A DNA stretch of 64,000 nucleotides. Source: Tidjanibacter sp. (lineage in GTDB: Bacteria; Bacteroidota; Bacteroidia; Bacteroidales; Rikenellaceae). The stretch is taken from NCBI GenBank assembly GCA_017466345.1, contig JAFTUI010000005.1, forward strand, positions 80,886-144,885, given 5' to 3'. This document shows, in pieces, positions 15,096-58,556 of the stretch (within the stretch, counting starts at the first letter, position 1; each line of letters opens with the position of its first letter). Made by a program: the position numbers and the translations under genes. Under the pieces are notes generated by a model. That model had not been told where the DNA came from, searched no databases, and saw nothing but the letters and a program-made list of their open reading frames with translations.

Positions 15096-15390
15096 TCGAG
15101 AGATGTCTTTTTTTCGGGGAGGTGTGGGGCTCTCCGAAGGAGAGTGGCAGACGAAATGGTAGCCCACTCAAACTCGTTTGAAGGTGGGCTGGCAATTCGA
15201 CAGCCAGACTATCTGCGAAGATAGTCACACCTCACCGCAAAGGCGTCAGAGTGACGCTCAAAGTGCAGGTGGCTCCGAAGCCACTCCGAAGCCACTCCGA
15301 AGCCACTCCGAAGCAAAGCGGTAGGTAGAACCACTATTGGTTGGTGCACTAAAAGTTTTTGGTTCCGCTTTTTACAAAAAGCGGAGAATA
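15096..15390 (+). repeat. Four-arm structured repeat, copy A
   Basis: This 300-base convergent gap contains a multi-hairpin element and no gene. The outer stem is GAGGTGTG (15119-15126) with CACACCTC (15226-15233). It encloses arm 2 (CTCTCC/GGAGAG, 15130-15144), a long arm 3 around GCCCAC/GTGGGC (15162-15189) and arm 4 (CTATCT-GCGA-AGATAG, 15209-15224). Then come GCGTCA-GAG-TGACGC, a run of GGCTCCGAAGCCACT units, the conserved box AAAAGTTTTTGG and a terminal hairpin CCGCTTTTT/AAAAAGCGG (15365-15384). Other copies lie at 18366-18546, 22986-23254 and 58381-58556. Confidence 0.85.
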
Positions 15391-15463
15391 AAAAACGGAG
15401 AAAAAATCCCCTGCCGAAATGTTAGGCAGGGGATTGTGTTATTATACAAGTGAATTTCCTCTA

Positions 15464-16264
15464 CTACTCGTCAGCGGCTACTGCTGCGGTGTTGTAGGGT
15501 TTGAGGATACCGCGTTTGGAGGAGCGGATGAATTCTACTACCTGGTTGCGGATTTCGCTCTCGGGGAACTGTGCCATAACGATGTCGCAAGCCATAGAGT
15601 AGGTGTGACCATCTTGGAAGAGCACACGGAAGATATCCTGAATCTGCTTAATCTCCTCGTTAGAGAACCCCCTGCGCCTCAAACCCAAGAAGTTGGCACC
15701 AACGTAGGTGATGGGGGTGTGGGCTGCCTTAACATAGGGAGGAACATCTTTGTTCACATAGGTATTGGCGGCAATCATTGCGTGGTCGCCGATGCGGCTG
15801 AACTGGTGAGCACCCGAGTGACCACCGAAGACCACATAGTTACCGAGTTCTACCTCGCCGGCGAGCGACACGTTATTTACGATTACGCAGTTGTTGCCGA
15901 TTACGCAGTCGTGGGCGATGTGTGCGTAAGCCATCACGAGGTTGTTGGAGCCCATAACGGTCTTACCCTTAGCGTCCGTACCGCGGTTTACCGTGCAGCA
16001 CTCGCGGAAGGTGTTGTTGTCGCCAATCTCGCAAGTGGTGTATTCGCCGTGGAATTTGAGGTCTTGGGGCACACCGCCGATAACAGCACCGCTGTGCACC
16101 TTGCAGTTTTTACCCATACGGGTGCCTGCCATAACGCTGGCGTGAGGACCAATCCAACTGCCATCGCCAATTACTACATCGCCCTCGATGTATGCAAAGG
16201 GCTCTACCGTAACATTCTCACCCAACTTTGCTTCGGGGTGGATATAAGCCAAATTACTAATCAT
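15464..16264 (-). CDS. lpxA: Acyl-ACP--UDP-N-acetylglucosamine O-acyltransferase
   Basis: A 266-residue left-handed beta-helix enzyme that performs the first acylation of lipid A synthesis. Hexapeptide repeats (IGDGSWIGPHASV, MGKNCKVHSGAVIG and others) fill residues 10-190, and the C-terminal third is helical. The catalytic histidine is expected in the MAYAHIAHDC block. It follows lpxC by 36 bases and is surely in the same operon. Length is standard. Confidence 0.96.
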   Translation of the reverse strand: MISNLAYIHPEAKLGENVTVEPFAYIEGDVVIGDGSWIGPHASVMAGTRMGKNCKVHSGAVIGGVPQDLKFHGEYTTCEIGDNNTFRECCTVNRGTDAKGKTVMGSNNLVMAYAHIAHDCVIGNNCVIVNNVSLAGEVELGNYVVFGGHSGAHQFSRIGDHAMIAANTYVNKDVPPYVKAAHTPITYVGANFLGLRRRGFSNEEIKQIQDIFRVLFQDGHTYSMACDIVMAQFPESEIRNQVVEFIRSSKRGILKPYNTAAVAADE

Positions 16265-16300
16265 ACTCCTTAAACGTATATTCGTAGTACTTTATTATCT

Positions 16301-17209
16301 CTATTTCAAATTCTTCTCCAATAGCTGTGCCATTTGTGTATTGGCATAGTGTCCGGGGCGCAGAGCCTCAACGTGACCTCGGATGCGTCTGCCGAGCAGT
16401 GCTAAGTCGCCGAGTATGTCGAGCAACTTGTGACGTGCAATCTCGTTCTCGAAACGTAGAGGTTGGTGGCTCAGGTAGCCCCTCTCAACCTCAATATCCT
16501 CCCTGCCAAAGGTCTTGCAGATGCGCTTCTTGGTGCTCTCCGAGATGGGTTTTTCCACTACCACCATAGCACTCTCCACCGAGCCGCCCTTGATGAGTCC
16601 CAACTTCAACAGCAACTCAATCTCGTGGAGGAATACAAATGTGCGGCAGGGTGCTATCTCCTCGCGGTAGTTTACCGAGTCATCATAGCGGTGCTGCTGC
16701 ACACCCACCACCGTAGAGTTATAGTCCACCGTAACATTCACAGAGTACTCCTCGGCAGGCGTGATAACCACCCTCACACCCTTCTTGGGAATCTCGAAGA
16801 GGAACTCCTCTTCCACCTCGAACCACTTGCGCTCGGCATCTTGCTCCACAGTGCCAACCCTCTCAATCTCGGCAGCGTAAGCCCTTGCCGAGCCATCCAT
16901 AATGGGAGTCTCGGGAGCGTCTATCTCTATGAGTGCATTGTCGATGCCCATTGTCCAGAGGGCGGAAAGAATGTGCTCTATGGTCGATACTTTTGCCTTA
17001 CCGTCCTTGATGGTCGTACCCCTCGAAGTGTCACATACATTGTGCGCCAATGCTGCCACTTCGGGAGCCCCTTTGAGATCCACTCGGCGGAATACAATAC
17101 CCCTATCGGCCTCCGCAGGGCACACCTTCATCGTTACCAACTCGCCGGTGTGGAGTCCCTTGCCACTGAATGATATTACTTCGGCAATAGTTCTTTGTTT
17201 GTTGGACAT
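16301..17209 (-). CDS. lpxC: UDP-3-O-acyl-N-acetylglucosamine deacetylase (stand-alone LpxC)
   Basis: A 302-residue zinc deacetylase for the committed step of lipid A synthesis. The zinc ligands are in STIEHILSAL and in the HKLLDILGD segment, and GHYANTQM near the C-terminus provides the catalytic His region. In Bacteroides and many relatives LpxC is fused to FabZ (about 460 residues); here the protein stops after the LpxC domain and an independent fabZ lies at 42.4 kb. lpxA follows 36 bases downstream. Confidence 0.95.
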   Translation of the reverse strand: MSNKQRTIAEVISFSGKGLHTGELVTMKVCPAEADRGIVFRRVDLKGAPEVAALAHNVCDTSRGTTIKDGKAKVSTIEHILSALWTMGIDNALIEIDAPETPIMDGSARAYAAEIERVGTVEQDAERKWFEVEEEFLFEIPKKGVRVVITPAEEYSVNVTVDYNSTVVGVQQHRYDDSVNYREEIAPCRTFVFLHEIELLLKLGLIKGGSVESAMVVVEKPISESTKKRICKTFGREDIEVERGYLSHQPLRFENEIARHKLLDILGDLALLGRRIRGHVEALRPGHYANTQMAQLLEKNLK

Positions 17210-17308
17210 TATGTTGTTTTCCTTAAAATTCTATTTTTTTGAACCACAAAGGTAATCAAATTTTCAATAAAAGTACTATCTTTGTGTGAATTGTGGTATT
17301 TTTGCGCT

Positions 17309-18097
17309 ATGGAACAACGCCAACATAACCAAAAGACGAGCCGCCCCCGACTCAACCTGCCCTACTCACGGAAGAGGGTAGATGTGGGTGTTTGGGCGTA
17401 CGACCATAGGGTGGCAATTTTGGTTACAGTGGTGGCGTATGTATTCTTTGGGGTGGCGTTTGTGGCTGCCGATATTGCCATCTCTCGCAAAAATTCGCAA
17501 ACCGAGATATTGATGGACTTCGCCGACCTCGAAGAGTTGCAAAAGGAGTTGGAACGAGCACAAGAGCTCAACCGACTGCTCAACGAACGCTACGAGGAGA
17601 GCCCCACCACCAACCGCATCTCCAACGAGAACGCACTCAATGAGAGCCTCGAAGACCACCGCACAAATGCCCGCGAAATCTATGCCGAGGCAGACGAGGT
17701 GCAACAACGCATACGCGACAATGCAGCCGACTACGCGCTGGGACTTGATAGAGAACGCGAAATTCTCGACCAACACTACGAAGGCGAGAAGATCGAAAAC
17801 CGCAAGGTAAGAGGCAATGTCACGGTGGCGTACTCGCTCTCGGAGCCTGTGCGCTACGCCTTGAAGATGCCTGTGCCAGCCTATATGTGCGAGGGGGGTG
17901 GCGATGTGGTGGTCGATATTGTGGTCAATACCTCTGGCGATGTTGTGGAGTGCAAAATTAACGATGCGCTCTCGGCAAAGAACAACTGCCTGCGGGAGGC
18001 GGCACTCTCCAAAGCTGGCGAGTCGCTCTTCAATGCCGACCCTGCGGCACCTGCACGACAGCGAGGGACGATTGAGTATACCTTCATCGCCCAATAG
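17309..18097 (+). CDS. TonB-like membrane-anchored protein of unknown partner
   Basis: About 262 residues, counted from the ATG giving MEQRQHNQ. A basic cytoplasmic N-terminus is followed by one transmembrane helix (about 35-57) and a charged helical, probably coiled-coil segment (about 65-165). The C-terminal domain (about 185-262) resembles the TonB C-terminal fold (DVVVDIVVNTSGDVVECKI). TonB-type proteins transmit energy from ExbBD to outer-membrane transporters, but no exbBD is nearby. A -7 box TATCTTTG lies at 17277-17284. It is divergent from lpxC. Confidence 0.6.
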   Translation: MEQRQHNQKTSRPRLNLPYSRKRVDVGVWAYDHRVAILVTVVAYVFFGVAFVAADIAISRKNSQTEILMDFADLEELQKELERAQELNRLLNERYEESPTTNRISNENALNESLEDHRTNAREIYAEADEVQQRIRDNAADYALGLDREREILDQHYEGEKIENRKVRGNVTVAYSLSEPVRYALKMPVPAYMCEGGGDVVVDIVVNTSGDVVECKINDALSAKNNCLREAALSKAGESLFNADPAAPARQRGTIEYTFIAQ

Positions 18098-18279
18098 CGG
18101 GCGGCTGATTTCTGAGGGCGATTTCTGCGTTACGCTTGCGCTCGAAATGCTCATTTACTATTGTAAACTCCGCTTTCTCGCGCTTCGCAAGCCTTGAACT
18201 CGCCTCACATAAATCACCCGCAGGGTTGGGGGTGGTGGCACAAAAATCCCTCCACAAAACCCACTCGCGGTTTTAGGGT

Positions 18280-18350
18280 CTAACGTCAATAGTCCTAAGG
18301 CTTATAGGGCTTATAGGGCATATAAGGCATATGGGGCATATATAAGTAGG
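18280..18350 (+). repeat. Dispersed core GTCTAACGTCAATAGTCC with 9-mer tandem tail
   Basis: A fixed core is followed by five or six degenerate units of the GCTTATAGG/GCATATAAG type. The 464-base gap between the TonB-like gene and the antiporter consists of this repeat and the structured element that follows; no gene is visible. Confidence 0.7.
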
Positions 18351-18365
18351 AGTTTGAGAGAAGTC

Positions 18366-18546
18366 TTTTTTCGGGGAGGTGTGAGGCTCTCCGAAGGAGA
18401 GTGGCGGGCGAAGTGTCAGCCCACTCAAACTCGTTTGAAAGTGGGCTGGCAATTCGACTGCTAAACTATCTGCAAAGATAGTCACACATCCCCGCAAGGG
18501 CTACACTAAAAGTTTTTGGTTCCGCTTTTTACAAAAAGCGGAGAAA
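18366..18546 (+). repeat. Four-arm structured repeat, copy B
   Basis: The outer stem is GGGGAGGTGTG (18373-18383) with CACACATCCCC (18483-18493, one mismatch). Arm 2 is CTCTCC/GGAGAG, arm 3 centres on AGCCCACTCAAAC, and arm 4 is CTATCT-GCAA-AGATAG. The conserved CTACACTAAAAGTTTTTGG box and the CCGCTTTTT/AAAAAGCGG hairpin end only 16 bases before the antiporter start codon, so this copy may affect its translation or transcription. It lacks the GGCTCCGAAGCC module of copies A and C. Confidence 0.82.
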
Positions 18547-18561
18547 GAGAGAAAAAACGAT

Positions 18562-20070
18562 ATGATAATAACAACCGGAAACATATTGCTTGTTGGCTCG
18601 ATAATTCTCTTTGTGAGTATTTTGGCGGGCAAGGCGAGCAGCCGTTTTGGTGCTCCGATGCTGTTATTCTTCCTGCTTGTGGGAATGGCATTTGGCACCG
18701 ATGGTGTGGGTATTGAGTTCGACAACTTTGCTGCTGTGCAGTTTGTGGGTATGCTTTCGCTGAGTATTATCCTCTTCTCGGGCGGTATGGACACTTCCTT
18801 TGACGAGGTTCGACCGGTGTTGAAGGAGGGTGTGGTGTTGGCTACTTTGGGTGTGGTTCTCACAGCACTTTTCACGGGCTCTATCATCTACTTTGTGAGT
18901 GGTTGGCTGGGTGCTCCGATACCTTTCACGCTGGCACTGCTCATTGCAGCGGTTATGTCCTCTACGGATTCGGCTTCGGTCTTTGCCATATTGCGCTCCA
19001 AGCGTGTGGGACTCAAAGAGAATTTGCGCCCGCTGTTGGAGTTGGAGAGCGGTAGTAACGACCCTATGGCTTACATCCTCACGATTATGCTCATACAGGT
19101 CAATATGGGCGAGGGTGGCTCGGTGGGTGCTGTGGCTCTTACCTTCCTCAAACAGATGGGCATTGGTGCGCTGTCGGGCTATCTGCTCGGCAAGGGTGCG
19201 GCAATGGTTGTAAACCGTATCAACATCGGCAATAAATCGCTCTATTCGGTGCTGTTGCTCTCGCTGGTGTTCTTCACAGCGTCTTTTACCGACCTGCTGG
19301 GGGGCAACGGCTACTTGGCGGTCTATATTGCGGGTATTGTTATGGGAAACCAGAGGTTGAGCCATAAGAAGACACTTGCCACCTTCCTCGATGGTGTGAC
19401 GTGGCTGATGCAGATTGTGATGTTCTTGATGCTGGGGCTGCTTGTCAATCCACACGAACTGAAAGATGTGGTCTTTATAGGTTTGATTGTCGGTGCGGCG
19501 ATGATTTTCCTTACTCGCCCGCTGGCTGTGTGGATTACCCTGCTGCCACTAAGGAGCAAACTGTCTAATAAGGCTCGCCACTATGTTTCGTGGGTGGGAT
19601 TGAGGGGTGCGGCACCTATCTTGTTTGCCACCTACCCCAAGTTGGCAGGTCTCGATCCCGACAACACCATCTTCAACATCGTCTTCTTCATAACCATCTT
19701 CTCGCTCATTGTTCAGGGCACTTCGGTGGGTAGTATGGCAAACTTCTTGGGAGTGTCGGAGGCGAGCCCTGAGAAGGGCTTTGATATAGACCTGCCCGAT
19801 GAGGTCAAGGCGGCACTCACGGAGGTCGATATTATTGAGGGCGGAGCCAGGGATGGCGCACTATTGAAAGATGTTAAGTTGCCCGAAAAGACCCTTGTGA
19901 TGATGATTCGCAGAGGCGATAAATATATTGTTCCCAACGGCTCCACAACGCTCCATAGGGGCGATAAACTGCTCCTTATCTCGGAGGAGATACAGGCACA
20001 GACGCCCCAAATTCAACATAGGGAGCACATTGTGCTGTGGGAAAGCATAAAACAGTTTATTAAGCGATGA
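18562..20070 (+). CDS. nhaP2: Potassium(cation)/proton antiporter, CPA1 type
   Basis: A 502-residue inner-membrane protein. About twelve or thirteen transmembrane helices (residues 5-400) include the SSTDSASVFAIL and LESGSNDPMAYIL motifs, the latter with the ion-binding N-D pair of this exchanger family. A C-terminal cytoplasmic TrkA-C-like domain (about 420-490) probably senses ligand. Proteins of this type (NhaP2/CvrA) expel K+ in exchange for H+ and regulate cell volume. The stop overlaps the start of the MscS gene by 4 bases, linking it to osmotic adaptation. Confidence 0.85.
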   Translation: MIITTGNILLVGSIILFVSILAGKASSRFGAPMLLFFLLVGMAFGTDGVGIEFDNFAAVQFVGMLSLSIILFSGGMDTSFDEVRPVLKEGVVLATLGVVLTALFTGSIIYFVSGWLGAPIPFTLALLIAAVMSSTDSASVFAILRSKRVGLKENLRPLLELESGSNDPMAYILTIMLIQVNMGEGGSVGAVALTFLKQMGIGALSGYLLGKGAAMVVNRINIGNKSLYSVLLLSLVFFTASFTDLLGGNGYLAVYIAGIVMGNQRLSHKKTLATFLDGVTWLMQIVMFLMLGLLVNPHELKDVVFIGLIVGAAMIFLTRPLAVWITLLPLRSKLSNKARHYVSWVGLRGAAPILFATYPKLAGLDPDNTIFNIVFFITIFSLIVQGTSVGSMANFLGVSEASPEKGFDIDLPDEVKAALTEVDIIEGGARDGALLKDVKLPEKTLVMMIRRGDKYIVPNGSTTLHRGDKLLLISEEIQAQTPQIQHREHIVLWESIKQFIKR

Positions 20071-21299
20071 TGAAGGAGAAAACATTTCTGCTCGATTGGA
20101 TGAGCACTCTGCTCGATTGGTTGGGGCTGAACTCTGCTGACGGAGGCTATAAAGCACTCTTTGCAACCCTTGTGGTTCTGGTCTGCTGCTTTGTGGTGTG
20201 GTGGCTGTTGCGCTACCTGCTGCTCAGGGCGCACCGCTTGGGAAGGTATGTAGATTCGCGCTTGGAGGTGATATTCGATAGGGCAAACCTCAATAAGATA
20301 GCCCTTATGGCGGCGGTCTTTATGTTCTATATACTCCTGCCACTCGCCTTCGACCCCGCATCTTCGGTGGGTATCTTTGTGCGTAAGGCTCTCGATGTGC
20401 TCATCGTGTGGATGTTGGCAAGTTTTGCCAATTCGGTCGTAAGGACTGTTTTTATGCTCATATACCACAAACGTAAGACCAAAGATGCGCCACTGAAAGG
20501 CTTTATGCAGGTCATACAGATTGTGGTGTGGGTTGTGGCAGCGATAGTCATCATCGCCATCCTTATTAACAAGTCGCCCACGAAACTTTTTACCGGTTTG
20601 GGTGCTTCGTTGGCAGTGTTGAGCTTTGTGTTTAAGGATTCCATCCTCAATCTGGTGTCGGGCATCCTGCTGTCGAGCGACAAGATGGTCAAGGTGGGCG
20701 ATTGGATAGAGATGCCTTCGGCAGGCATTGATGGTACGGTCATAGATATGACACTCAACACCGTGAAGGTCAGGGGGTGGGATAATACCATATCCAACGT
20801 GAGCCCCTATACGCTCACTTCGGGCACCTTCAAGAATTGGCAGGGTATGTTCTCCTCGGGAGGTAGGCGTATTGCCCGCTATGTGGAGATAGATATTAAC
20901 ACCGTGAAGTTCTGCACCGAAGAGCTACTCGAAAGAGTCGGCAAGTTGGAGGTTATGCGTGAGTATATCGACTCGCTCCCTGAGCCCCGCTTGCAGACCA
21001 CCAACCTCGAACTCCTCAGGGTATATATTGAGCGTTATATGGAGGCTCAACCTTGGCTCAACCGCGAGATGCTCCATATGGTGCGACAGTTGCAGTCGAG
21101 CGATACGGGTGTGCCCTTGCAGGTCTATGCTTTTACGGCTACAACCGTGTGGGTGGAGTATGAGCGCATACAAGCGGCACTCTTTGAGCATATTATGGCC
21201 ATTGTCCCACTCTTTGAGATAAAAATCTTCCAGCGTCCTTCGGGCGGCGACTTGGATAAACGTGCCACGATAGAGGATATTGTCAAGTGGGAGGCGTAA
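20067..21299 (+). CDS. MscS-type mechanosensitive channel (YbdG-like)
   Basis: A 410-residue membrane protein with about five N-terminal helices. The pore-lining helix and conserved beta domain follow (GASLAVLSFVFKDSILNLVSG, then DWIEMPSAGIDGTVIDMTLNTVKVRGWDN). A large C-terminal cytoplasmic domain extends to the end. It most resembles the YbdG/MscM subgroup. It releases solutes when membrane tension rises. Translational coupling with the antiporter upstream (ATGA overlap) fits a shared role in osmotic balance. Confidence 0.87.
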   Translation: MMKEKTFLLDWMSTLLDWLGLNSADGGYKALFATLVVLVCCFVVWWLLRYLLLRAHRLGRYVDSRLEVIFDRANLNKIALMAAVFMFYILLPLAFDPASSVGIFVRKALDVLIVWMLASFANSVVRTVFMLIYHKRKTKDAPLKGFMQVIQIVVWVVAAIVIIAILINKSPTKLFTGLGASLAVLSFVFKDSILNLVSGILLSSDKMVKVGDWIEMPSAGIDGTVIDMTLNTVKVRGWDNTISNVSPYTLTSGTFKNWQGMFSSGGRRIARYVEIDINTVKFCTEELLERVGKLEVMREYIDSLPEPRLQTTNLELLRVYIERYMEAQPWLNREMLHMVRQLQSSDTGVPLQVYAFTATTVWVEYERIQAALFEHIMAIVPLFEIKIFQRPSGGDLDKRATIEDIVKWEA

Positions 21300-21805
21300 T
21301 AGTTAGTTTCACAGGTCATCGCCCCGATAAAATTGCGGGCTATGGTGCCTCGCCACGCACGGTGGAGGTAGCACTCCGCAAAGCTCTCGCCGCAGAGATT
21401 TTGCGACTTGCGAGGGAGGGCGCAAAAACCTTCGTGAGCGGAATGGCGCCGGGGGTTGATTTGTGGGCGGCAGACGAGGTGCTCCGACTGAGAACAGAAG
21501 GACGTATTGGTGCCGATGTAAGACTACGCTTGGCGGTGCCCTACGAGAATTTTGAGCGCTCCTTTGGCGCCGAGTGGCGACCTCTCTACAATGCCATCTT
21601 GGAGAGGGCAGATGATGTGGTCTATCTCTCGCAGGGCTACTACCGAGGCTGCTTCAATAGGCGCAACGACTACCTTGTGGATGTTGCCGATGTAGTGGTC
21701 GCCTACTACGAGGGCGAAGAGGGTGGCACGCGCTACACACTGCGCAGAGCAGAGAAGAGAGGACGGAGTGTGATAAACCTCCACCAGAGAGAACTTTTTG
21801 ACTAA
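21287..21805 (+). CDS. SLOG/DUF1273-like nucleotide-binding protein
   Basis: A 172-residue cytoplasmic protein using a GTG start inside the end of the MscS gene. VSFTGHRPDK at the N-terminus, FVSGMAPGVDLWAADEV near residue 50, and a late VVAYYEGEEGGTRYTLRRAE segment are typical of the SLOG (LOG/Smf-Rossmann) DUF1273/YoqJ group. Members are thought to bind nucleotides or nucleotide-derived signals; function is not established. It is the third gene of a closely packed run with antiporter and channel. Confidence 0.75.
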   Translation: MGGVIVSFTGHRPDKIAGYGASPRTVEVALRKALAAEILRLAREGAKTFVSGMAPGVDLWAADEVLRLRTEGRIGADVRLRLAVPYENFERSFGAEWRPLYNAILERADDVVYLSQGYYRGCFNRRNDYLVDVADVVVAYYEGEEGGTRYTLRRAEKRGRSVINLHQRELFD

Positions 21806-21827
21806 CAAACAAATACATTTAATCGTT

Positions 21828-22580: not shown

Positions 22581-22940
22581 CGTCTAACGTCAATAGTCCT
22601 AAGAGTTCCATGGGTTCCAGGGATTCCAGGGATTTCAGGGATAACAGGGGTTGCAGGGGGAATTCTTCCTTGTTATCCTTGCAACCCTTGTAACCCTTGT
22701 AACCCTTGTAACCCCTGCATCCCTCCCCTAAGTTAGGGGAGGGTGCCGAAGGCGGGAGAGGTCTGTAAAGAAGTTCCTCCCCTACGACAGGGGAGGATAG
22801 GAGGGGTGGTCGAAATTGCGCTCGGCGTCCTCGCCGAGCAGGGAGGGTGCCGAAGGCGGGAGAGGTCTGTTCGTCTTGCCACGACTGCCGTAGGCAGGCG
22901 GTTGGCATCTACCTATCTTGTTTTTTTGCAGGGATAACAA
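22565..22940. repeat. Composite simple-repeat block
   Basis: No gene. The dispersed core (GTCTAACGTCAATAGTCC at about 22580) is followed by a copy-specific tail of GGTTCCAGG/GATTCCAGG units, then tandem TTGTAACCC units. Next come palindromes of the CTCCCCTAAGTTAGGGGAG class at 22723-22743, the segment GTGCCGAAGGCGGGAGAGG (twice), and GCTCGGCG/CGCCGAGC. Equivalent pieces recur inverted near 62.1-62.8 kb. Confidence 0.7.
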
Positions 22941-22985
22941 GGGTAGCAGGTGTAACAAGGATTACAGGGGAGTTTGAGAGGAGTC

Positions 22986-23254
22986 TTTTTTCGGGGAGGT
23001 GTGAGGCTCTCCGAAGGAGAGTGGCGGGCAAAAGAATAGCCCTCTCAAACTTGTTTGAAAGAGGGCTATTGTTTTGGCTGCTAAACTATCTGCGAAAGAT
23101 AGCCACACCTTACCGCAAAGGCGTCAGAGTGACGCATTTGTGCAAGTGGCTCCGAAGCCACTCCGAAGCCACTCCTAAGCAAGACGGTAGGTAGTACCAC
23201 TATTGGTTGGTGCACGAAAAGTTTTTGGTTCCGCTTTTTACAAAAAGCGGAGAA
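22986..23254 (+). repeat. Four-arm structured repeat, copy C
   Basis: The outer stem is AGGTGTG (22997-23003) with CACACCT (23104-23110). Arm 3 is longer and different from copies A and B: AATAGCCCTC (23035-23044) pairs with GAGGGCTATT (23061-23070), extended by CAAAA/TTTTG. Arm 4 is CTATCT/AGATAG (23086-23102). The GGCTCCGAAGCCACT run, the GTGCA/TGCAC pair, the AAAAGTTTTTGG box and the CCGCTTTTT/AAAAAGCGG hairpin follow. It lies in the convergent gap between the phosphatase and arginine deiminase genes. Confidence 0.83.
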
Positions 23255-23269
23255 GAAAAACTCGTAGAA

Positions 23270-32399: not shown

Positions 32400-32404
32400 T
32401 GGTG

Positions 32405-32487
32405 CTGTTAGGGGTGCCGCCCTGTGTGGGCTGGCTGAGATGATACCCTCCGAACCTGATATGTATAATGACAGCGCAGGGAAACGG
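32405..32487 (+). promoter_or_regulatory. TPP riboswitch (THI element)
   Basis: The conserved TPP-aptamer blocks are present in order: GGGGTGCC, GGCTGAGATGATACCC, CCGAACCTGAT, and the ATAATGACAGCGCAGGGAA segment. The closing stem P1 is CTGTT with AACGG. TPP binding should lower expression of the downstream salvage genes. The aptamer is followed 75 bases later by an intrinsic terminator, so control is probably by premature termination. Confidence 0.96.
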
Positions 32488-32561
32488 TGAGATTGTGTGG
32501 CAAATGGCGAGGCGCACGGTGGTGGCCTTTGCAGGGAGCCAAAAATGATTAAACGTGGTTG

Positions 32562-44793: not shown

Positions 44794-44929
44794 TTTTATA
44801 TGTCATCACGCCTCATTGGGCGCGAAAGCGGGCGCAAGATAAGAATAATTTTTGGTTTTCAGCTACTATTGGCGTTTTTTTATTTCTCGCACCCCATTCC
44901 ACACCCATAGGTATTAAAAAAGACACCTG

Positions 44930-45135
44930 AGTTTTTATAGGGCGTATAAGGCTTATAGGGCATATAGGCGACAGACCTCTCCCGCCTTCGGCACCCTCCC
45001 CTAACTTAGGGGAGGGTTAAGTGTATTGCTCCCCTAAGTTAGGGGAGTTGTCGCAAAGCGACTGAGGGGTCTGTCCGACACACGCCCCCACTCTTCGCGC
45101 ACCCCCTCTAACTTAGAGGGGGAATGTAGGGGAAC
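44930..45135. repeat. 9-mer tail repeat and CTCCCCTAA palindromes
   Basis: Degenerate TATAGGGC 9-mers (44935-44968) are followed by CTCCCGCCTTCGGCACC and then two CTCCCCTAA/TTAGGGGAG palindromes (44995-45050) and CCCCCTCTAACTTAGAGGGGG (45102-45122). The 412-base gap between tRNA-Ser(GGA) and the lipoprotein gene has no gene. Confidence 0.7.
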
Positions 45136-49263: not shown

Positions 49264-49270
49264 ACGCCGG

Positions 49271-50153: not shown

Positions 50154-50239
50154 CCACTTATCAAGGTTAAGGTTTCGGTTTTTTAAGTCCCCGCACAGGG
50201 GCTCCCCAACAATAATAAAAAGGCAAACAATAATGAAAA

Positions 50240-51247: not shown

Positions 51248-51300
51248 CAACAAAGGGGAGGTTGTGAGCCTCCCCAATTGTGTTAGATTAACCTAAAAGG

Positions 51301-52311: not shown

Positions 52312-52567
52312 TAAGGTATCCCCATATTATCACGAATGCTACTGCTACTATTATTGCTATTATACACATAACAGTAAAACCGTGTTTTGAGCTCATAAGT
52401 TTATTCCATTGAGATAGTTCTTGCGGAACAGATGTTTTAGATGTGTTATCAAATAATTTGTTTACGAGTTTTTTAACACGATTATGATTGAGAGGATTAT
52501 CCCATGTCGTTAGTCCCCATTCAAAAAATTGTGCTGTTAGGGTTGTCTGAGTATCATTTAATTTAAT
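52298..52567 (-). CDS. Small tail-anchored protein, start unclear or 5' end broken
   Basis: An 89-codon frame (LNDTQTTLTAQFFEWGLTTW near its start) ends in a hydrophobic helix (FTVMCIIAIVAVAFVIIWGYL) and stops inside the first codons of the 336-residue gene. Charge pattern and C-terminal helix suggest a real tail-anchored membrane protein. No ATG, GTG or TTG lies at the 5' end after the in-frame TAA; it would need an ATT start, or an ATG two frames away with a frameshift. It is either noncanonically started or slightly damaged. Confidence 0.45.
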   Translation of the reverse strand: MKLNDTQTTLTAQFFEWGLTTWDNPLNHNRVKKLVNKLFDNTSKTSVPQELSQWNKLMSSKHGFTVMCIIAIIVAVAFVIIWGYLSGRF

Positions 52568-52620
52568 ATTTTATTCTTTTTTCAAAGTATAAATGGACAC
52601 CGATTAAAAGTAAACATTTT

Positions 52621-52652
52621 TTCTGGCGTAAATTATTTTTTACGCCAGAGAA
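52621..52652. promoter_or_regulatory. Right subterminal inverted motif pair
   Basis: TTCTGGCGTAAATT and TTTTTTACGCCAGAGAA form an inverted repeat (CTGGCGTAAA/TTTACGCCAG). They match the left-end motifs at 49261-49284 in opposite sense. The remaining 110 bases to attR have no gene. Confidence 0.55.
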
Positions 52653-52764
52653 ACCCCTCTTCCCAACAAAGTCTAATAAGGTTAAATAAGGAAAGTTTTT
52701 CTAAACCCCGCAATTTCAAAGGGCAAACAAGGCTTAACAACCCTATATAAAGCCTTGAAAATCA

Positions 52765-52785
52765 TCCGCTTCGCACCTCAAAAAA
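52765..52785 (+). repeat. attR: 21-bp repeat
   Basis: Exact copy of 49204-49224. It is followed by GGCTCGC-TGTTG-GCGAGCC and then TTATTTTTTGAGGTGCGAG, so that CGCACCTCAAAAAATA and its complement close one long perfect hairpin. This is the original chromosomal terminator of tRNA-Cys. Confidence 0.88.
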
Positions 52786-52807
52786 TAGGCTCGCTGTTGG
52801 CGAGCCT

Positions 52808-53110
52808 TATTTTTTGAGGTGCGAGTTATCTCGCACCGATATTCACATTCCTCCCCAAACCCCTCCTTTGCAAAAGAAGGGGCTTATAATTTGGGATGCT
52901 TTGATGCGAGCCTTTTGTTTTTGAGGTGTGAATTGTTTCGCACCGATTTTTACATCCCCCCTAAATCCCCCTTTGACAAAGGGGGACTTGTTTTTTTGTG
53001 GGGGTGGCATTTGCAGACTATTGTTTTTGAGGTGCGAGTTATCTTACACCAATTTTTACATATCCTCTCCGCCTGCGTAGCACTCCCCCTAACTTGGAGG
53101 GAGGGTTTTG
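52808..53110. repeat. Array of three tRNA-Cys-end hairpin units, period about 107 bp
   Basis: Units begin near 52814, 52921 and 53028. Each starts with TTTTTGAGGTGCGAG, the reverse complement of the tRNA-Cys 3' end, and continues into a hairpin (GGTGCGAG-TTAT-CTCGCACC in unit 1). TTTTTACAT then leads to a CCCCT-rich palindrome (such as TCCCCCTTTG/CAAAGGGGGA). No gene is visible in the 560 bases between attR and the LptF/LptG gene. Confidence 0.75.
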
Positions 53111-53346
53111 CTGCCAATAAGCCCTGCAAGGTATATATGCCACACACAAGTACGGGTATTAAAAAAGATACCCGTAAATTAAATAGGGGGAGGTGGTGGG
53201 AGATAAATTACCGCTGACATCAAAAAATCACCATCCACATCTTTGTCGTTCTCAATTTTCAAATAATTTTCAACTTTCAACTTTCAATTCTCAACTTTAT
53301 AAGTATCTTTGTGGTTTATAAGTCGCTTTGCGTAGCAAAGAAAGTT

Positions 53347-54483
53347 ATGGGAGATTATAGACAGGAAGAGAAAAACCGCAGGAGTTGGTGGCCCGGATTT
53401 AAGATTCTGGACGGTTACATCACGCGCAAATTTCTCGGCACATTCTTCCTTGCTATTGCGTTGATTATCATTATTGTAGTGGTGTTTGATGCGGTAGAGA
53501 AGATTGACGACTTCATAGAGATGAAGGCTCCCTTGAAGGAGATTGTCTTCGGCTACTATCTCAATTTTGTGCCCTACTTTATCAATCTTTTCTGCGGACT
53601 CTTTACTTTCATTGCGGTAATTTTCTTCACCTCGCAGATGGCGGGTAGGACCGAGATTACAGCAATTCAGGCAAGCGGTGTCAGCTTCCGCAGGTTGCTA
53701 TACCCATATTTCCTCTCGGCAATGCTCATCACGGGCATCTCGCTCTTCCTCAATCTCGAAGTCATCCCCTCGGCTAACGAGAGGCGTGTGGAGTTCGAGG
53801 GCCAGTATCTGCGCAAAAACCGCCGCGTGCAGTACGAGCCCCACATCTTCCGACAGATTGAGCCGGGAGTCTTTGCCTATGTGCGCAACTACAACCCCAC
53901 GACCAACAAGGCATCGTTTATGACCATCGAGCGTTTCGATGGTAGTAGCATCGTGGAGTCGCTCGAAGCGGGCGATGTGAAGTTCAACGACAAGACAGGG
54001 CGCTGGGAGGCTCCCAAGTATGCCACCCACCGTTTTGTGGGCGAGGAGGATCTCTTTGAACTACACGAAGAGAAGCTCGACACACTCATAAACCTCTCGG
54101 AGCAGGAGTTGGGCAAGGTCGAGAACCTCATAACGACAATGAAGATTGCCGAACTCAACGAGTTCATAGAGCAGCAACGAGCCAAAGGCTCGGATATGAT
54201 AGGTATCTTCGAGGTGGAGCGTCAGAAGCGCTATTCGTACCCCTTGTCGGTCTTCATACTGACCGTCATAGGTGTGTCGCTCTCCTCGCGCAAGATGCGT
54301 AGTGGTACGGGTGTGAACATTGGTATTGGTGTGATACTCTGCTTTACATATATTATGTTGGGTAGGGTATTCGAAGAGATAGCCAAAGGCAACGAGGGGG
54401 CAATAGCGACACTGCTTGTGTGGCTGCCGAACATTGTCTTTGCCATCATCGCCGCCTACATCTACCGCAAAGCACCGAAGTAA
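53347..54483 (+). CDS. LptF/LptG family lipopolysaccharide export permease
   Basis: About 378 residues from the ATG giving MGDYRQEEK. Layout of the YjgP/YjgQ family: three N-terminal helices (ILDGYITRKFLGTFFLAIALII onward), a beta-jellyroll-like periplasmic domain (about 140-270), and three C-terminal helices (YSYPLSVFILTVIGVSLSSRKMRSG). With LptB it forms the ABC transporter that extracts LPS from the inner membrane. Whether it is the F or G subunit cannot be told. A TATCTTTG box lies at 53304-53311. Confidence 0.9.
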   Translation: MGDYRQEEKNRRSWWPGFKILDGYITRKFLGTFFLAIALIIIIVVVFDAVEKIDDFIEMKAPLKEIVFGYYLNFVPYFINLFCGLFTFIAVIFFTSQMAGRTEITAIQASGVSFRRLLYPYFLSAMLITGISLFLNLEVIPSANERRVEFEGQYLRKNRRVQYEPHIFRQIEPGVFAYVRNYNPTTNKASFMTIERFDGSSIVESLEAGDVKFNDKTGRWEAPKYATHRFVGEEDLFELHEEKLDTLINLSEQELGKVENLITTMKIAELNEFIEQQRAKGSDMIGIFEVERQKRYSYPLSVFILTVIGVSLSSRKMRSGTGVNIGIGVILCFTYIMLGRVFEEIAKGNEGAIATLLVWLPNIVFAIIAAYIYRKAPK

Positions 54484-54486
54484 AAT

Positions 54487-54600
54487 TGAGGCAAATGCGA
54501 GTAAGCGAGGGCAGAGGCTGCTTGCAGACTATGCCGAGCGGGAGCATTTTAGAGCAGCCGAAGGCTGGTCAATTGAGAGTTGAGAATTGAGAATTGAGAA
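54487..54600 (+). repeat. Dispersed ~85-nt hairpin repeat (copy 6) with TTGAGAA heptamers
   Basis: Begins 3 bases after the LptF/LptG stop codon. Nearly identical to the copy after thiD at 36611-36698. Confidence 0.85.
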
Positions 54601-54664
54601 AAATCCCATTTCTCCCATAACTCCCATTTAGGGTAGAGCAAAGGTAAAGCGATACGCAGTATCG

Positions 54665-54738
54665 CATAAAAGTTTTTGGTTCCGCTTTTTACAAAAAGCG
54701 GAGAGAAAAGGCGACTTTTTATAAAAAGTCGCGAAAAG
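54665..54738 (+). repeat. Partial structured repeat (terminal hairpins only)
   Basis: The AAAAGTTTTTGG box and CCGCTTTTT/AAAAAGCGG hairpin are followed by a second one, GGCGACTTTTTATAAAAAGTCGC. Only the 3' module of the four-arm element is present. It lies 61 bases before the aspA start. Confidence 0.75.
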
Positions 54739-54798
54739 GAAGAAAAAAGAAGAACAAAACAAATTATACAAAACCTAAAAAACAAACTAAGAAAAACT

Positions 54799-56235
54799 AT
54801 GATGGACATTACAATGGCTCAACTTTCGGGTAAGACCCGTGAGGAGCACGACCTTTTGGGCTGGAAACAGATTCCCGAGGAGTACTATTTTGGTGTGCAG
54901 ACTATGCGCGCGGTGGAGAACTTCCACATTTCGAGGGTTAAACTCTGTATGTTCCCCGAGTTTATCAAGGCTTTGGCAGAGGTTAAGGCTGCTGCGGCTA
55001 TGGCAAACCGCGATTTGGAACTTATGGATGCAGAGGTAGCAGAGGCTATCGTTAAGGCTTGTAGGGAGGTTGCCGAGGGCAAACTCGATGCTCACTTTGT
55101 GGTTGATATGGTGCAGGGCGGTGCCGGTACTTCGACCAATATGAACGCCAACGAGGTTATTGCCAACCGCGCACTCGAACTGCTCGGTCACGCCAAGGGC
55201 GAGTATAAATACTGCCACCCCAACAACCACGTCAACCTCTCGCAGTCGACCAACGATGCATATCCCACCTCCGTGAAGGTTGCTACCATCAGGAGCATCG
55301 ACAAACTCATCGAGGCTCTGAAAGCCTTGGTTGCTTCGTTTGCTGCCAAGGGCGAGGAGTTTAAGGATGTTATCAAGATGGGTCGTACCCAGTTGCAGGA
55401 TGCAGTGCCTATGACTCTCGGTCAGGAGTTTACCGCCTATGCTGCTACTCTGGGCGAGGAGATTGAGCGCTTGGAGCAGAACAAGGTGTTGCTCTATGAG
55501 CAGAATATGGGTGCTACGGCTATCGGTACGGGTATCAACTCCGACCCCGACTATCCCGCTCTCTGCTGCAAATACTTGGCTGAGGTAACAGGTCTTCCTA
55601 TGGTTGTGTCGCCCAATATGATTGAGGCTACAAACGATACGGGTGCTTTCGTGATGAACTCTTCGGCTATGAAACGCTTGGCAGTGAAACTCTCGAAGAT
55701 TTGTAACGACCTCCGACTGATGTCGAGCGGTCCTCGTTGCGGCTTGAACGAGATTAACCTGCCTCCTATGCAGCCCGGCTCTTCGATTATGCCCGGCAAG
55801 GTGAACCCCGTAATTCCCGAGGTGGTAAATCAGGTAGCCTTCCGCGTTATTGGTAACGACCTTACGGTAACCTTCGCCAGCGAGGCTGCACAGTTGGAAC
55901 TCAACGTTATGGAGCCTATCATTGTTCACTCTATGTTCGAGAATGTGGATATGCTCATCAACGCTATGAACACCCTCAGGGAGAAGTGCGTGGATGGTAT
56001 CACCGCCAACGAAGAGGTCTGCAAACGCTTGGTTTACAACTCCATCGGCTTGGTGACCGCTCTGAACCCCTACATCGGCTACGAGAACTCCACTTCGCTT
56101 GCTAAGGAGGCTCTCCAAACCGGCAAGGGTATCTACGACTTGGTGCTCGAAAGGAAACTTATGAGCCGCGAGGAGTTGGACAACATTCTCAAACCCGAGA
56201 ATATGGTTAAACCCCGCAAGTTCCCAAAACAGTAG
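54799..56235 (+). CDS. aspA: Aspartate ammonia-lyase (aspartase)
   Basis: About 478 residues from the ATG giving MMDITMAQ. Deaminates aspartate to fumarate, feeding anaerobic fumarate respiration. The N-terminal EEHDLLGWKQIPEEYYFGVQTMRAVENF block is typical of aspartase rather than fumarase. The superfamily signature GSSIMPGKVNP contains the catalytic Ser. With the asparaginase and arginine deiminase nearby it suggests active amino-acid catabolism. A clear terminator follows. Confidence 0.95.
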   Translation: MMDITMAQLSGKTREEHDLLGWKQIPEEYYFGVQTMRAVENFHISRVKLCMFPEFIKALAEVKAAAAMANRDLELMDAEVAEAIVKACREVAEGKLDAHFVVDMVQGGAGTSTNMNANEVIANRALELLGHAKGEYKYCHPNNHVNLSQSTNDAYPTSVKVATIRSIDKLIEALKALVASFAAKGEEFKDVIKMGRTQLQDAVPMTLGQEFTAYAATLGEEIERLEQNKVLLYEQNMGATAIGTGINSDPDYPALCCKYLAEVTGLPMVVSPNMIEATNDTGAFVMNSSAMKRLAVKLSKICNDLRLMSSGPRCGLNEINLPPMQPGSSIMPGKVNPVIPEVVNQVAFRVIGNDLTVTFASEAAQLELNVMEPIIVHSMFENVDMLINAMNTLREKCVDGITANEEVCKRLVYNSIGLVTALNPYIGYENSTSLAKEALQTGKGIYDLVLERKLMSREELDNILKPENMVKPRKFPKQ

Positions 56236-56287
56236 TGCGAAAATCGGTGTTGGGCATCGTAAAAGATTCCCAATGCTGCTTAGAACA

Positions 56288-56325
56288 AAACGCCCCAAAG
56301 TCCAATGCTTTGGGGCGTTTGTTGT
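56288..56325 (+). terminator. Intrinsic terminator after aspA
   Basis: AAACGCCCCAAAG (56288-56300) and CTTTGGGGCGTTT (56308-56320) form a perfect 13-bp stem, followed by GTTGT. Confidence 0.88.
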
Positions 56326-56473
56326 ATGCAATAAGAGGGTTTTTGTGGCTTGTGGGAAGCGGAGCAGTTGAACGATTTTGTTGCGGTGTCTATGGCTTTG
56401 GTCTTAACTTCGCATATTATTAGAAGGTATAAAAGTTACATTAGAACAAAATAGTTTACTAATCAAACAGGTT

Positions 56474-58150
56474 ATGGTAAAAGAGAATCTCATTAGGATG
56501 TATGAGGAGAGTTTCCGCAACAATGCCGAACTTCCCGCACTTACCGACTATTTCAAAAAAACCACCCTTACATATTTCGATTTGGCACAGCTGATTGCCA
56601 AATATCACCTCGTGTTGGAGAAATATGGCATTGAGGCTGGCGACAAATTGGCTCTGATTGGTCGCAACACCCCCAAGTGGGTTACCGCATACGCTGCAAC
56701 CATCACTTATGGTGCAGTTATTGTCCCCATTTTGCAGGACTTCAACCCCATCGATGCCACCAACATCATCAACCACTCCGATTCGCGCGTGCTCTTCCTC
56801 TCGCAGGATGTGTGGGATAAACTCGACAGCGAGAAGTTCGAGAAATTGGAGGCTGTTGTGGAGTATGAAACGATGACCACTCTCTGGGAGCGCAACGAGG
56901 GCACCTTCAAACCCCTTATGGACAATGTAGATGCTCTCTTTGCTGAGCGTTATCCCAATGGCTTCACCACCAACGACATACGCTACCCAGAAGTCCCCAA
57001 CGACAGGGTATTCATCATCTCCTACACCTCGGGTACTACGGGTCTGAGCAAGGGTGTGATGCTGACCGTCAATAACATCACCGCCAATGTGGCATTTGCC
57101 ATCGAGTATAAGTTCCACTATCGTGGTTCGCGCGTGTTGGGTATTCTTCCTTTGGCTCACGCCTTCGGTTGCGCATTCGATATGCTCACCCCTCTGGCAA
57201 CAGGCTCGCACATCACTCTGTTGGGCAAACTGCCCGCAGCACCCATTCTCTTGAAGGCTCTGAAAGATGTTAAGCCCGACCTGCTGCTTACGGTGCCTCT
57301 GTTGGTGGAGAAGATTATCAAAGGTAAGGTTATGCCCACCTTGGAGAAGCAGCCCGTAAAGACACTTGTGAAGATTCCTCTCTTGAACCAGATTGTATAC
57401 AAGAAGGTACGCACACAACTTATGGAGGCATTCGGTGGTGCGCTGACGGAACTTATTATGGGTGGCGCAGCACTCAATAGCGATGTGGAGAAACTGCTCA
57501 AAAAGATTAAGTTGCCCTACACCGTTGGTTACGGTATGACCGAGACGGCACCCCTTATCTGCTATGCACACCACACCGAGTATAAGTCGCTCTCGTGCGG
57601 TAAGTTGGTGGATGGTATGCAGATGAAGATTGACTCGGCAGACCCCTACAACATCCCCGGCGAGATCTGCGTCAAGGGCGAGAATGTGACCGTTGGCTAC
57701 TACAAAAATCCAGACGCTACGGCTGCCGTATTTGATGAGGATGGCTGGTTCCATACAGGCGATATGGGCGTTGTGGACGCCGCCACCAACTGCTTCATCC
57801 GCGGACGTTGCAAGACTATGATTCTCTCCAACAACGGACAAAATATCTACCCCGAGGAGATTGAGGCAAAACTCAACAACTTGGATGCTGTTGTGGAGTC
57901 GCTCATCGTTGAGGAGGAAGGCAAACTCGTGGCTCTGGTGGTTCCCAACTACGAGCTGGCACAAAAGGAGGGTTGGAGCACCACACATCTGAAAGAGATG
58001 ATGGCTGAGAACCTGAAAAAACTCAACACGCTGGTTGCGCCCTACGAGAGGGTATCGGCAATCAAATTGTGCGCCACCGAGTTTGAGAAGACCCCCAAGA
58101 AGAGCATCCGCCGATACCTCTATCCTAAGGCGGCAAAAATCGTCTCGTAA
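56474..58150 (+). CDS. Long-chain acyl-CoA/acyl-ACP ligase (AMP-forming)
   Basis: A 558-residue adenylate-forming enzyme. The P-loop is YTSGTTGLSKGVML, followed by GYGMTETAPL, the HTGDMG motif and the hinge RGRCKTMILSNNGQNIYPEEIE. The catalytic C-terminal lysine region is KTPKKSIRRY. It activates fatty acids to acyl-adenylates for CoA or ACP. Substrate chain length is not readable. It is transcribed alone and is followed by a copy of the two-hairpin element found after rpoC. Confidence 0.88.
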   Translation: MVKENLIRMYEESFRNNAELPALTDYFKKTTLTYFDLAQLIAKYHLVLEKYGIEAGDKLALIGRNTPKWVTAYAATITYGAVIVPILQDFNPIDATNIINHSDSRVLFLSQDVWDKLDSEKFEKLEAVVEYETMTTLWERNEGTFKPLMDNVDALFAERYPNGFTTNDIRYPEVPNDRVFIISYTSGTTGLSKGVMLTVNNITANVAFAIEYKFHYRGSRVLGILPLAHAFGCAFDMLTPLATGSHITLLGKLPAAPILLKALKDVKPDLLLTVPLLVEKIIKGKVMPTLEKQPVKTLVKIPLLNQIVYKKVRTQLMEAFGGALTELIMGGAALNSDVEKLLKKIKLPYTVGYGMTETAPLICYAHHTEYKSLSCGKLVDGMQMKIDSADPYNIPGEICVKGENVTVGYYKNPDATAAVFDEDGWFHTGDMGVVDAATNCFIRGRCKTMILSNNGQNIYPEEIEAKLNNLDAVVESLIVEEEGKLVALVVPNYELAQKEGWSTTHLKEMMAENLKKLNTLVAPYERVSAIKLCATEFEKTPKKSIRRYLYPKAAKIVS

Positions 58151-58278
58151 AAAACGCAAATAACGCGCGTCTGCGGCGTTATACTTCGATAAGCGGCTTC
58201 CTCATTTGCGCTAAGCAAACTGCGGAGCCGCTTTCTCGTATGCCTTGCATCCATCACGTTATTTGCGTTTTTTGTCTA
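58150..58278 (+). repeat. Fourth copy of the rpoC-downstream two-hairpin element
   Basis: A hairpin from AACGC/GCGTT at 58172-58180 is followed by AGCGGCTTCC (58192-58201) paired with GGAGCCGCT (58224-58232) enclosing TTTGC/GCAAA. The tail CGTATGCCTTGCATCCAT is the same as in the third unit at 5640-5660. Confidence 0.82.
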
Positions 58279-58355
58279 ATGTCTAACGTCTAACGTCAAT
58301 AGTCCTAAGGCTTATAGGGCTTATAAGGCTTATAAGGCTTATAGGAGCGACAGGA
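58274..58355 (+). repeat. Core repeat with GCTTATAAG tail
   Basis: TGTCTAATG, GTCTAACG and the core GTCTAACGTCAATAGTCC are followed by about five GCTTATAAG/GCTTATAGG units. Confidence 0.75.
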
Positions 58356-58380
58356 GAAACAGGGGAGTTTTTGAGAGGAG

Positions 58381-58556
58381 TCTTTTTTCGGTGGTGTGGA
58401 TGCTCCGAAGGAGCAGAAATGAGGAAAACACCATCTCTCAAACTTGTTTGAAAGAGATTGGTGGTTTACTCATTTCAGATCTGCCGCAAGGCAGTCACAC
58501 CACCGCAAAGGCTACACGAAAAGTTTTTGGTAGCACCTTTTTACAAAAAGGTGCGA
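58381..58556 (+). repeat. Four-arm structured repeat, copy D (most diverged)
   Basis: Every arm differs in sequence from copies A-C yet pairs. Outer stem GGTGGTGTG (58390-58398) with CACACCACC (58496-58504). Arm 2 is TGCTCC-GAA-GGAGCA (58401-58415). Arm 3 has a base GAAATGAG/CTCATTTC (58416-58423, 58469-58476) and tip ATCTCT/AGAGAT. Arm 4 is CTGCC-GCAA-GGCAG (58481-58494). The terminal hairpin is GCACCTTTTT/AAAAAGGTGC. It sits between the acyl ligase and the HPrK-like gene, both of which end here. Confidence 0.87.

Follow-up and report, generated by a model that had tools for sequence, protein, structure and literature searches.

What kind of object is the four-armed, cloverleaf-like element that recurs between genes in a stretch of 64,000 nucleotides (hereafter the window) from a Tidjanibacter genome of the Rikenellaceae (assembly GCA_017466345.1, contig JAFTUI010000005.1, positions 80,886 to 144,885), and what might it do there? 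A preliminary description made from the letters of the window reported four copies, each with a closing stem, three arms, a AAAAGTTTTTGG box and a terminal hairpin, and took them to reflect selection on a folded RNA or single-stranded DNA (ssDNA) and not mere repeat spread. All four copies are present at those sites with that layout; overlooked was a fifth box and hairpin, which lacks the junction (54668-54702). In this order of parts the closing stem and the three arms make up a four-way junction, followed by the box and a hairpin of the form clamp-CTTTTT-AC-AAAAAG-clamp, with a variable clamp and the inner stem CTTTTT/AAAAAG. The reading favoured here, which we put forward tentatively, is that the element is a REP-like (repetitive extragenic palindrome-like), non-autonomous intergenic repeat of exchangeable modules, which would act as folded RNA in 3′ or intercistronic segments of messenger RNA.

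Conservation of the fold and the favoured strand

Folded as RNA and compared with shuffled sequences, copies 2, 4 and 3 have z-scores of -7.6, -7.5 and -8.0, respectively; copy 1 is represented by its junction core (L012), one of the 23 own cores described below. A DNA search with the whole element across 61 genomes matched the junction, among the matches listed outside the own genome, in one genome only (G014), while the other listed matches cover the box-hairpin end; because of this, junctions of relatives were located by the conserved tip of arm 3, and copies without that tip are missed. The 23 distinct cores of the own genome exclude copy 4, whose fold was computed separately; dropped from the set were L079, L124, one of L171 and L201 (no start within reach) and L181 and L204 (no end). 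The minimum-energy structure consists of the closing stem and three arms in all 23 own cores and in 19 of the 21 cores from relatives, the other two folding otherwise; this amounts to 42 of 44 real cores as against 74 of 880 dinucleotide shuffles of them. The stems themselves are far from uniform: over the 42 cores there are 24 distinct strings at the junction end (eight-pair) of the closing stem, 13 in arm 2, 33 in arm 3 and 19 in arm 4. Several of the closing-stem strings are unrelated to each other (GAGGTGTG/CACACCTC, GGTTTAGG/CCTAAACC, GAGTTATG/CATAACTC, GGGAGATC/GATCTCCC and TGTGTTGG/CCAACACA), others represent one stem in shifted register, and the closing stem extends farther outward by AGTCTTT paired with AAAGGCT.

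A statistical test supports the covariation that the preliminary description saw in the four copies, with a smaller signal in the own genome than among relatives. In the relatives' alignment (16 sequences, one subtype) 96.1% of the cells are paired, the covariation score is 0.357, and both sides change in 22 of 54 pairs, whereas controls with slid partners leave 5-10; none of 500 shuffles reaches any of the five covariation measures. The own alignment (14 sequences, one subtype) gives a smaller signal, with both-side changes in 8 of 51 pairs (reached by 13 of 500 shuffles) and 37 covarying cells versus 14.4 in shuffles (reached by none of 500); further pair types number 21 there, which is below the shuffled mean of 23.5. 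These comparisons are to be read with the structures having been derived from the tested alignments, which is an advantage over the slid versions. The covariance model drawn from a mixed alignment did not retain arm 4 and played no part in the searches.

Constant in letters are the box and the tip of arm 3, CAARYTNRYTTG, followed in nearly all cores by AA; the tip is at the same time the word by which the relatives' cores were selected. The loop of arm 3 is CTTG, CTCG, TTTA, TTCA or TTAA in 42 of 42 cores, each time with a first base that is complementary to the last. In the own genome the arm-3 tip can also be paired with the 5′ flank GAGTTTGAG; by eye this pairing is absent in relatives, and it was dropped. 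In the terminal hairpin, 185 copies from the own and other genomes show 42 clamp strings, 34 of which form four or more pairs; counted by copy, 170 of the 185 have four or more clamp pairs if G-T is included, and among the matches listed a single clamp dominates in several genomes. The constancy of the inner stem is partly by construction, nearly all of these loci having been fetched by pattern or by similarity. As a general feature, a hairpin directly before the box is in weak excess over shuffles or in none (real versus shuffled 0.57/0.41 in the own genome, 0.49/0.41 in other Rikenellaceae, 0.65/0.47 in Clostridia, 0.50/0.40 in acetic acid bacteria and 0.50/0.55 in the rest).

The fold distinguishes between the strands. 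The plus strand has the lower energy in 43 of 44 cores, and among deviations from Watson-Crick pairing G-T outnumbers A-C by 17 to 5 column events (p 0.017; 38 cores, three groups), in structures that were computed for each strand without G-U pairs and then combined, a procedure with no built-in preference for either; the G-T excess and the lower plus-strand energy therefore indicate that one strand is favoured. Whether this strand is RNA or DNA is a different matter. GNRA tetraloops are stable in RNA, and C(GNA)G triloops are exceptionally stable in DNA. The loop of arm 4 is GNRA in three of the four window copies, as had been described (that of copy 3 has five bases, GCGAA), and is not constant beyond them (21 of 42 cores, 14 of the 23 own ones), while 38 of the 42 have a C(GNA)G triloop in arm 2. 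Loops thus fail to separate RNA from DNA, because one type favours DNA and the other RNA. Copy 2 folded as DNA has a z-score of -8.3. Covariation and strand asymmetry support the proposed selection on a folded single strand, which may be RNA or ssDNA.

Copies, gene context and mobility in Rikenellaceae

In the window the AAAAGTTTTTGG box occurs five times exactly and seven times with at most one mismatch, where shuffled sequences have a mean of 0.56 (at most one mismatch). The parts of the five copies are collected in Table 1; in copies 1 and 3 some 90-100 extra bases, including 11-base repeats, separate the junction from the box.

Table 1. Parts of the element copies in the window, and the intergenic gap of copy 2
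Feature	Position	Strand	Remark
Copy 1, four-way junction core (closing stem and three arms)	15115..15238	+	outer stem bases lie immediately beyond
Copy 1, insert module, containing CTCCGAAGCCA repeats of 11 bases	15242..15349	+	
Copy 1, AAAAGTTTTTGG box	15351..15362	+	
Copy 1, clamped hairpin TCCGCTTTTTACAAAAAGCGGA	15364..15385	+	
Gap holding copy 2	18098..18561	+	464 bases
Copy 2, four-way junction core	18372..18495	+	
Copy 2, AAAAGTTTTTGG box	18508..18519	+	
Copy 2, clamped hairpin	18521..18542	+	
Copy 3, four-way junction core	22992..23116	+	
Copy 3, insert module	23120..23215	+	
Copy 3, AAAAGTTTTTGG box	23217..23228	+	
Copy 3, clamped hairpin	23230..23251	+	
Fifth copy, small hairpin GCGATACGCAGTATCGC replacing the four-way junction	54649..54665	+	by eye
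Fifth copy, AAAAGTTTTTGG box without junction	54668..54679	+	
Fifth copy, clamped hairpin	54681..54702	+	second hairpin of the same kind at 54711-54732
Copy 4, four-way junction core, second subtype	58389..58506	+	
Copy 4, AAAAGTTTTTGG box	58519..58530	+	
Copy 4, clamped hairpin	58533..58554	+	differing clamp, GCACC/GGTGC

The whole genome (1.82 Mb in 30 contigs) contains many more copies. Similarity searches match 48 pieces with copy 2 as query and 67 with copy 3, and the pattern AAAAGTTTTTNG, gap, CTTTTTNNAAAAAG, which describes box plus clamped hairpin, is found in 43 places, its reversed control in none; in 25 of the 43 the arm-3 tip lies within 220 bases upstream. Two of the places, C28:10259 and C25:151258, are probably a single site that the assembly contains in duplicate, and two boxes share a gap in three cases. 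The pattern is present in 15 of 24 genomes of the genus (the box-bearing ones being 59-99% complete), and near-identical forms among named records come mostly from Tidjanibacter and other Rikenellaceae. Modules differ between copies and between species, and the box-hairpin is a module separate from the four-way junction. Deletions at short shared words are visible by eye in several copies; two junction-less copies (L021 and L026), considered as 5′-truncated retro-copies, by eye rather resemble deletions between CAAGGG words.

Of the window copies, those numbered 1, 3 and 4 are in convergent gaps, as had been described; copy 2, located in that description just ahead of the antiporter gene, is flanked by genes of the same direction. 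Over the 43 own copies, with neighbours called by a simple purpose-built gene finder, both neighbours are in the sense of the element in 28, convergent in 12, divergent in one and both antisense in one, the upstream gene being uncalled in the last. Four copies fall inside a called open reading frame; for three (L016, L002 and L006) a start codon just past the hairpin suggests that the call is too long, the fourth being C25:100121, and when all four are left out the tandem tally is 25 sense to one antisense. Gaps of at least 100 bases in 20 stretches plus the window comprise 80 tandem, 34 divergent and 28 convergent ones, and compared with these the element avoids divergent gaps (1 of 42 copies versus 34 of 142 gaps, p 0.0007). 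Where both neighbours are known in other taxa, divergent placement is rare in four groups (3/38, 2/25, 0/13 and 0/8) and not rare in three small ones (Ruminococcus-like Clostridia 1/6, Nitrospirae 1/3, the rest 1/2). The 21 junction-bearing copies of relatives are mostly convergent (nine cases); in another five the next gene is opposite, with the upstream gene unknown, and the remainder are sense tandem (two), antisense (one), divergent (two) or undetermined (two).

The word TAnnTTTG is a promoter word of Bacteroidetes. Within 250 bases before the next start it occurs in one of 19 own element gaps, of which 18 are tandem and one is divergent, compared with 7 of 40 element-free tandem gaps in a smaller own sample and 22 of 75 in a larger one, the latter contrast having a p of 0.036; of divergent gaps, 17 of 25 have it. 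Among tandem gaps of relatives, the word is found in 1 of 12 whose box is in sense, in 4 of 10 whose box is antisense and in 27 of 105 that have no box. Its scarcity in element gaps matches what is expected for the interior of operons.

The genes around copy 2, the antiporter gene and the gene preceding it (17309-20070), are found as a pair in 19 relatives of the genus; the labels antiporter, TonB-like and ispD for genes of this study were assigned by eye, either in the preliminary description or by us, and are presumptive. With gap ends estimated by tblastn, the two genes are separated by 15-57 bases in 13 of the 19 and by 147-480 in six, and the AAAAGTTTTTGG box is in the gap of none of the 19. 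With the own gap at 464 bases, it follows that a block of about 400 bases was added between these operon-like genes, with the element as its last part. As regards a target site duplication, divergence at the closest empty sites is too great for an alignment. In other gaps the box-hairpin stands beside the same genes in other species with differing sequence upstream of the box; one such gap lies by the gene labelled ispD, and another has a next gene common to the records of four other species, three of which share the upstream gene. Most own copies are without a counterpart among the loci compared, a partial set. Along with the folded single strand, the sense orientation of own copies supports the preliminary interpretation; its contrast with mere repeat spread is a false choice, since the element combines a conserved fold with the many copies, the modular make-up and the lineage-specific addition of a repeat.

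Candidates for a mobilizing system were considered in turn. A mobilizer of RAYT/IS200 type was rejected for the genus, the Y1 transposase (Y1_Tnp, PF01797) being found in none of the 15 box-bearing genomes, some of them incomplete; among 26 other box-bearing genomes it is present in 11 and was not found in 15, including one with 93 copies. Reverse transcriptase (RVT_1) as the driver was likewise rejected: it occurs in four of 24 genus genomes only, all four box-bearing and the own one among them, and is absent from a genome with 52 copies. For a viral origin, no viral contig has the exact pattern and a 56-base query gave no phage match with the low-complexity filter of BLAST on. Terminal inverted repeats are not apparent at copy 2, the one copy compared, the longest exact match between its ends being six bases.

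Several other repeats share the intergenic regions of the window. Tandem repeats of 9 bases (TAAGGCTTATAGGG...) lie at 5671-5735, 18287-18342, 44929-44975 and 58297-58361, several of them 5′ of an element, and other copies have by eye a AACAGGGAT-like 9-base array at the same position. A second palindromic intergenic repeat, CTCCTCATTTACG...AGTAAACTGCGGAG, is at 5274-5303, 5400-5429, 5602-5631 and 58198-58227, and a 123-base copy pair (at 5554 and 58150) is 93% alike. A further intergenic repeat, at 52802-53068, comprises three units spaced by about 106 bases, in which TTTTTGAGGTGYGAG..CACC stretches occur. Two duplications, each 98% alike, look recent (62197-62307/62830-62940, 111 bases; 36607-36723/54484-54600, 117 bases), and a thiamine pyrophosphate (TPP) riboswitch is at 32400-32499 (Rfam, 60.5 bits).

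Occurrence in other bacteria and comparison with known repeats

The box-hairpin is also found in records of Bacillota, Pseudomonadota, Nitrospirae, Cloacimonadota and Aminicenantes. A pattern scan of contigs gave at least 108 stretches, from genera including Anaerotignum, Tyzzerella, Negativibacillus, Acutalibacter, Oscillibacter, Novacetimonas, Komagataeibacter, Gluconobacter and Acidocella; in 26 of these genomes the counts range from 1 to 93, with the reversed control at zero in all; Novacetimonas has 93, an Anaerotignum 59 and Komagataeibacter 56, and assemblies of Cloacimonadota and Nitrospirae have 13 and 12, respectively. Low counts in metagenome-assembled genomes could be contamination, which cannot explain every occurrence because several of the carriers are named strains.

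Some of these genomes present the module in other arrangements. In Komagataeibacter and Novacetimonas (L156, 1300-1380; L126, 6098-6180) inverted box-hairpin pairs, boxes outside, lie in convergent gaps. In Rikenella, Millionella and Cloacimonadota (L129, L134, L165, L143 and L102) a reversed hairpin-box is seen by eye about 75-250 bases before a forward one, with the hairpins outside, so that the pair resembles an element whose ends are inverted. By eye, a pairable repeat with GGTCAAGG..CCTTGACC-like ends and an inner TTGAGGGC hairpin precedes the box in Anaerotignum and in a Clostridia record (L110, L116, L125 and L155), and this repeat perhaps corresponds to the four-way junction.

Composite mosaics of palindromes downstream of genes are familiar from the REP sequences and bacterial interspersed mosaic elements (BIME) of E. 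coli and from REPINs; the AAAAGTTTTTGG element is likewise a mosaic in such a position and would differ from them in sequence, tag and enzyme. The GTAG- and CGTC-tagged REP superfamilies are, as far as their description goes, tagged palindromes present in many copies, mostly in unidirectional or convergent gaps, in several phyla (PMC3733652). Shared with them are the short palindrome, the fixed unpaired tag on one side, the many copies, the predominance of unidirectional and convergent gaps and the spread over several phyla; different here are the tag itself (AAAAGTTTTTGG), the T5/A5 inner stem, the four-way junction module and the absence of Y1_Tnp from many carriers. Within 14 bases of the hairpin arms, GTAG is present in 11, CTAC in one, CGTC in three and GACG in five of 188 copies; by tag, and by the distribution of the Y1 transposase, the element is not a member of the REPs of the RAYT (REP-associated tyrosine transposase) system. 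In the broad sense of many short intergenic palindromes away from promoters, with 43 copies in the own genome and 1-93 in 26 others, the element is REP-like.

Two further comparisons rest on what the respective papers describe. The repeats bcr1-bcr18, from a paper limited to the Bacillus cereus group, are intergenic and resemble miniature inverted-repeat transposable elements (MITEs); about half are transcribed within untranslated regions and operons, some are conserved in fold, and bcr3 correlates with longer mRNA half-life (PMC3446304). The likeness is by description, both being intergenic repeats. BrickBuilt, a MITE of Porphyromonas gingivalis, is described as intergenic, transcribed, combined with tandem repeats and bounded by terminal inverted repeats like those of insertion sequences (PMC4596501); a Bacteroidales host, the intergenic site and the company of tandem repeats are shared with the present element, and the short match between the ends of copy 2 sets it apart.

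No known family of structured RNA was matched at the element. ARAGORN and Rfam give three tRNAs in the window, none of them at an element, which disposes of a tRNA or tmRNA, and in Rfam 15, even at a threshold of E 5, the region 18280-18580 around copy 2 matches no family. Across 16 loci from other genomes the Rfam matches are to rRNA and tRNA only. String searches of the literature, in which letters inside figures are out of scope, brought up no paper recognizable by title as one on bacterial repeats with the letters of the element, and among the top matches on Bacteroidales, Rikenellaceae, acetic acid bacteria and four-way-junction repeats no description of it was recognized. It is possible that it was sighted earlier, unnamed, within the large lists of candidate structured RNAs from microbiomes; as it stands, the element looks like an undescribed family of folded repeats.

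Possible roles of the element

The core module of the favoured reading is the 12-base AAAAGTTTTTGG box with its hairpin; in Rikenellaceae a four-way junction, some 125 bases long, often stands before the box. The position in the own genome downstream of a gene of the same direction leads one to expect that the element is copied into mRNA as a 3′ or intercistronic segment. Within the message it may fold and act as a structural block and spacer, by which the 3′ part of the upstream gene would be shielded from exonucleases and the short A-rich leader of the next gene kept clear of upstream structure, the element not being an intrinsic terminator itself.

Several observations weigh against this proposal. 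Tandem copies outside the own genome are of mixed orientation (sense/antisense 14/6 in Tidjanibacter, 6/11 in other Rikenellaceae, 3/5 in Anaerotignum-like Clostridia), and for this reason the box-hairpin as such cannot be said to follow a rule of sense orientation. Weak, too, is the promoter contrast, which has a p of 0.42 against the smaller own sample and, pooled with relatives (2/31 versus 34/145), of 0.047. In the closing stem, neither the relatives' nor the own alignment contains a pair with both partners altered, so that the evidence from the closing stem is the contrast between subtypes, and the covarying cells may stem from few events. The arm-2 triloops and the fold energy of copy 2 as DNA suit DNA equally.

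The last point leads to an element of ssDNA, of which a strand would fold during replication or transcription and be copied or moved by a DNA-processing enzyme, the RNA fold being a by-product. A strand-specific fold fits one strand of DNA just as well, and the many copies, the dominant clamp of several genomes, the lineage-specific addition at copy 2 and the REPIN-like inverted pairs of Komagataeibacter and Novacetimonas would all be natural for a mobile DNA; we regard it as possible, if doubtful, given that the known type of enzyme was found in none of the 15 carriers of the genus (59-99% complete) and not in 15 of 26 others, and that the 28:1 sense bias of the own genome tracks genes. The element could also be neutral repeat debris, in which template-switch repair keeps palindromes paired and copies survive where they are harmless, away from promoters. 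The rarity of divergent gaps, the module swaps and deletions at short shared words and the many other repeat families in the same gaps are in accord with this. Long-range closing stems that differ between subtypes and yet pair, a box and arm-3 tip (the latter also a selection word) fixed across genera, a four-way topology kept in nearly all cores and the strand bias of the fold are not, and this explanation appears unlikely.

A transcription terminator acting in one or both directions would be in keeping with the position at gene ends, with the inverted pairs that fill convergent gaps in acetic acid bacteria and with antisense terminator-like calls in the junction of copy 3 (23063-23040 and 23124-23105) and just past the hairpin of copy 1 (15411-15397). 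On the sense strand, however, the bases after the hairpin are A-rich with no T run, terminator-like calls number zero at the three elements scanned, 28 copies have neighbours of the same direction on both sides, and the promoter word is missing before the next gene in 18 of the 19 element gaps tested; we consider a terminator very improbable. The strong and conserved fold could also belong to a family of genes for a stable small RNA processed from the element sites, for which dozens of copies in several genomes, modules varying among copies and species and the lack of an Rfam match to copy 2 leave hardly any room.

Returning to the folded intercistronic repeat, a wider proposal can be attached to it, though we think it rather less than probable: next to the GTAG and CGTC superfamilies of tagged repeats, AAAAGTTTTTGG-tagged palindromes might constitute a third one, present in records of at least six phylum-level groups and multiplied without Y1 transposase, which in Rikenellaceae would have been fused to a conserved four-way-junction RNA as a portable intergenic segment of mRNA. 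As a speculation from the order of the parts, a U-A-U triple strand might form in this RNA between the T5 of the box and the inner A5/T5 stem. If true, a short tag and hairpin would recur nearly letter for letter across very distant bacteria, with a clamp that varies among genomes. The known type of transposase would fail to explain this spread, which would make the element a target in the search for a mobilizing or RNA-binding system, and its many natural, structure-preserving variants would allow one to probe the effect of folded intercistronic repeats on operons.

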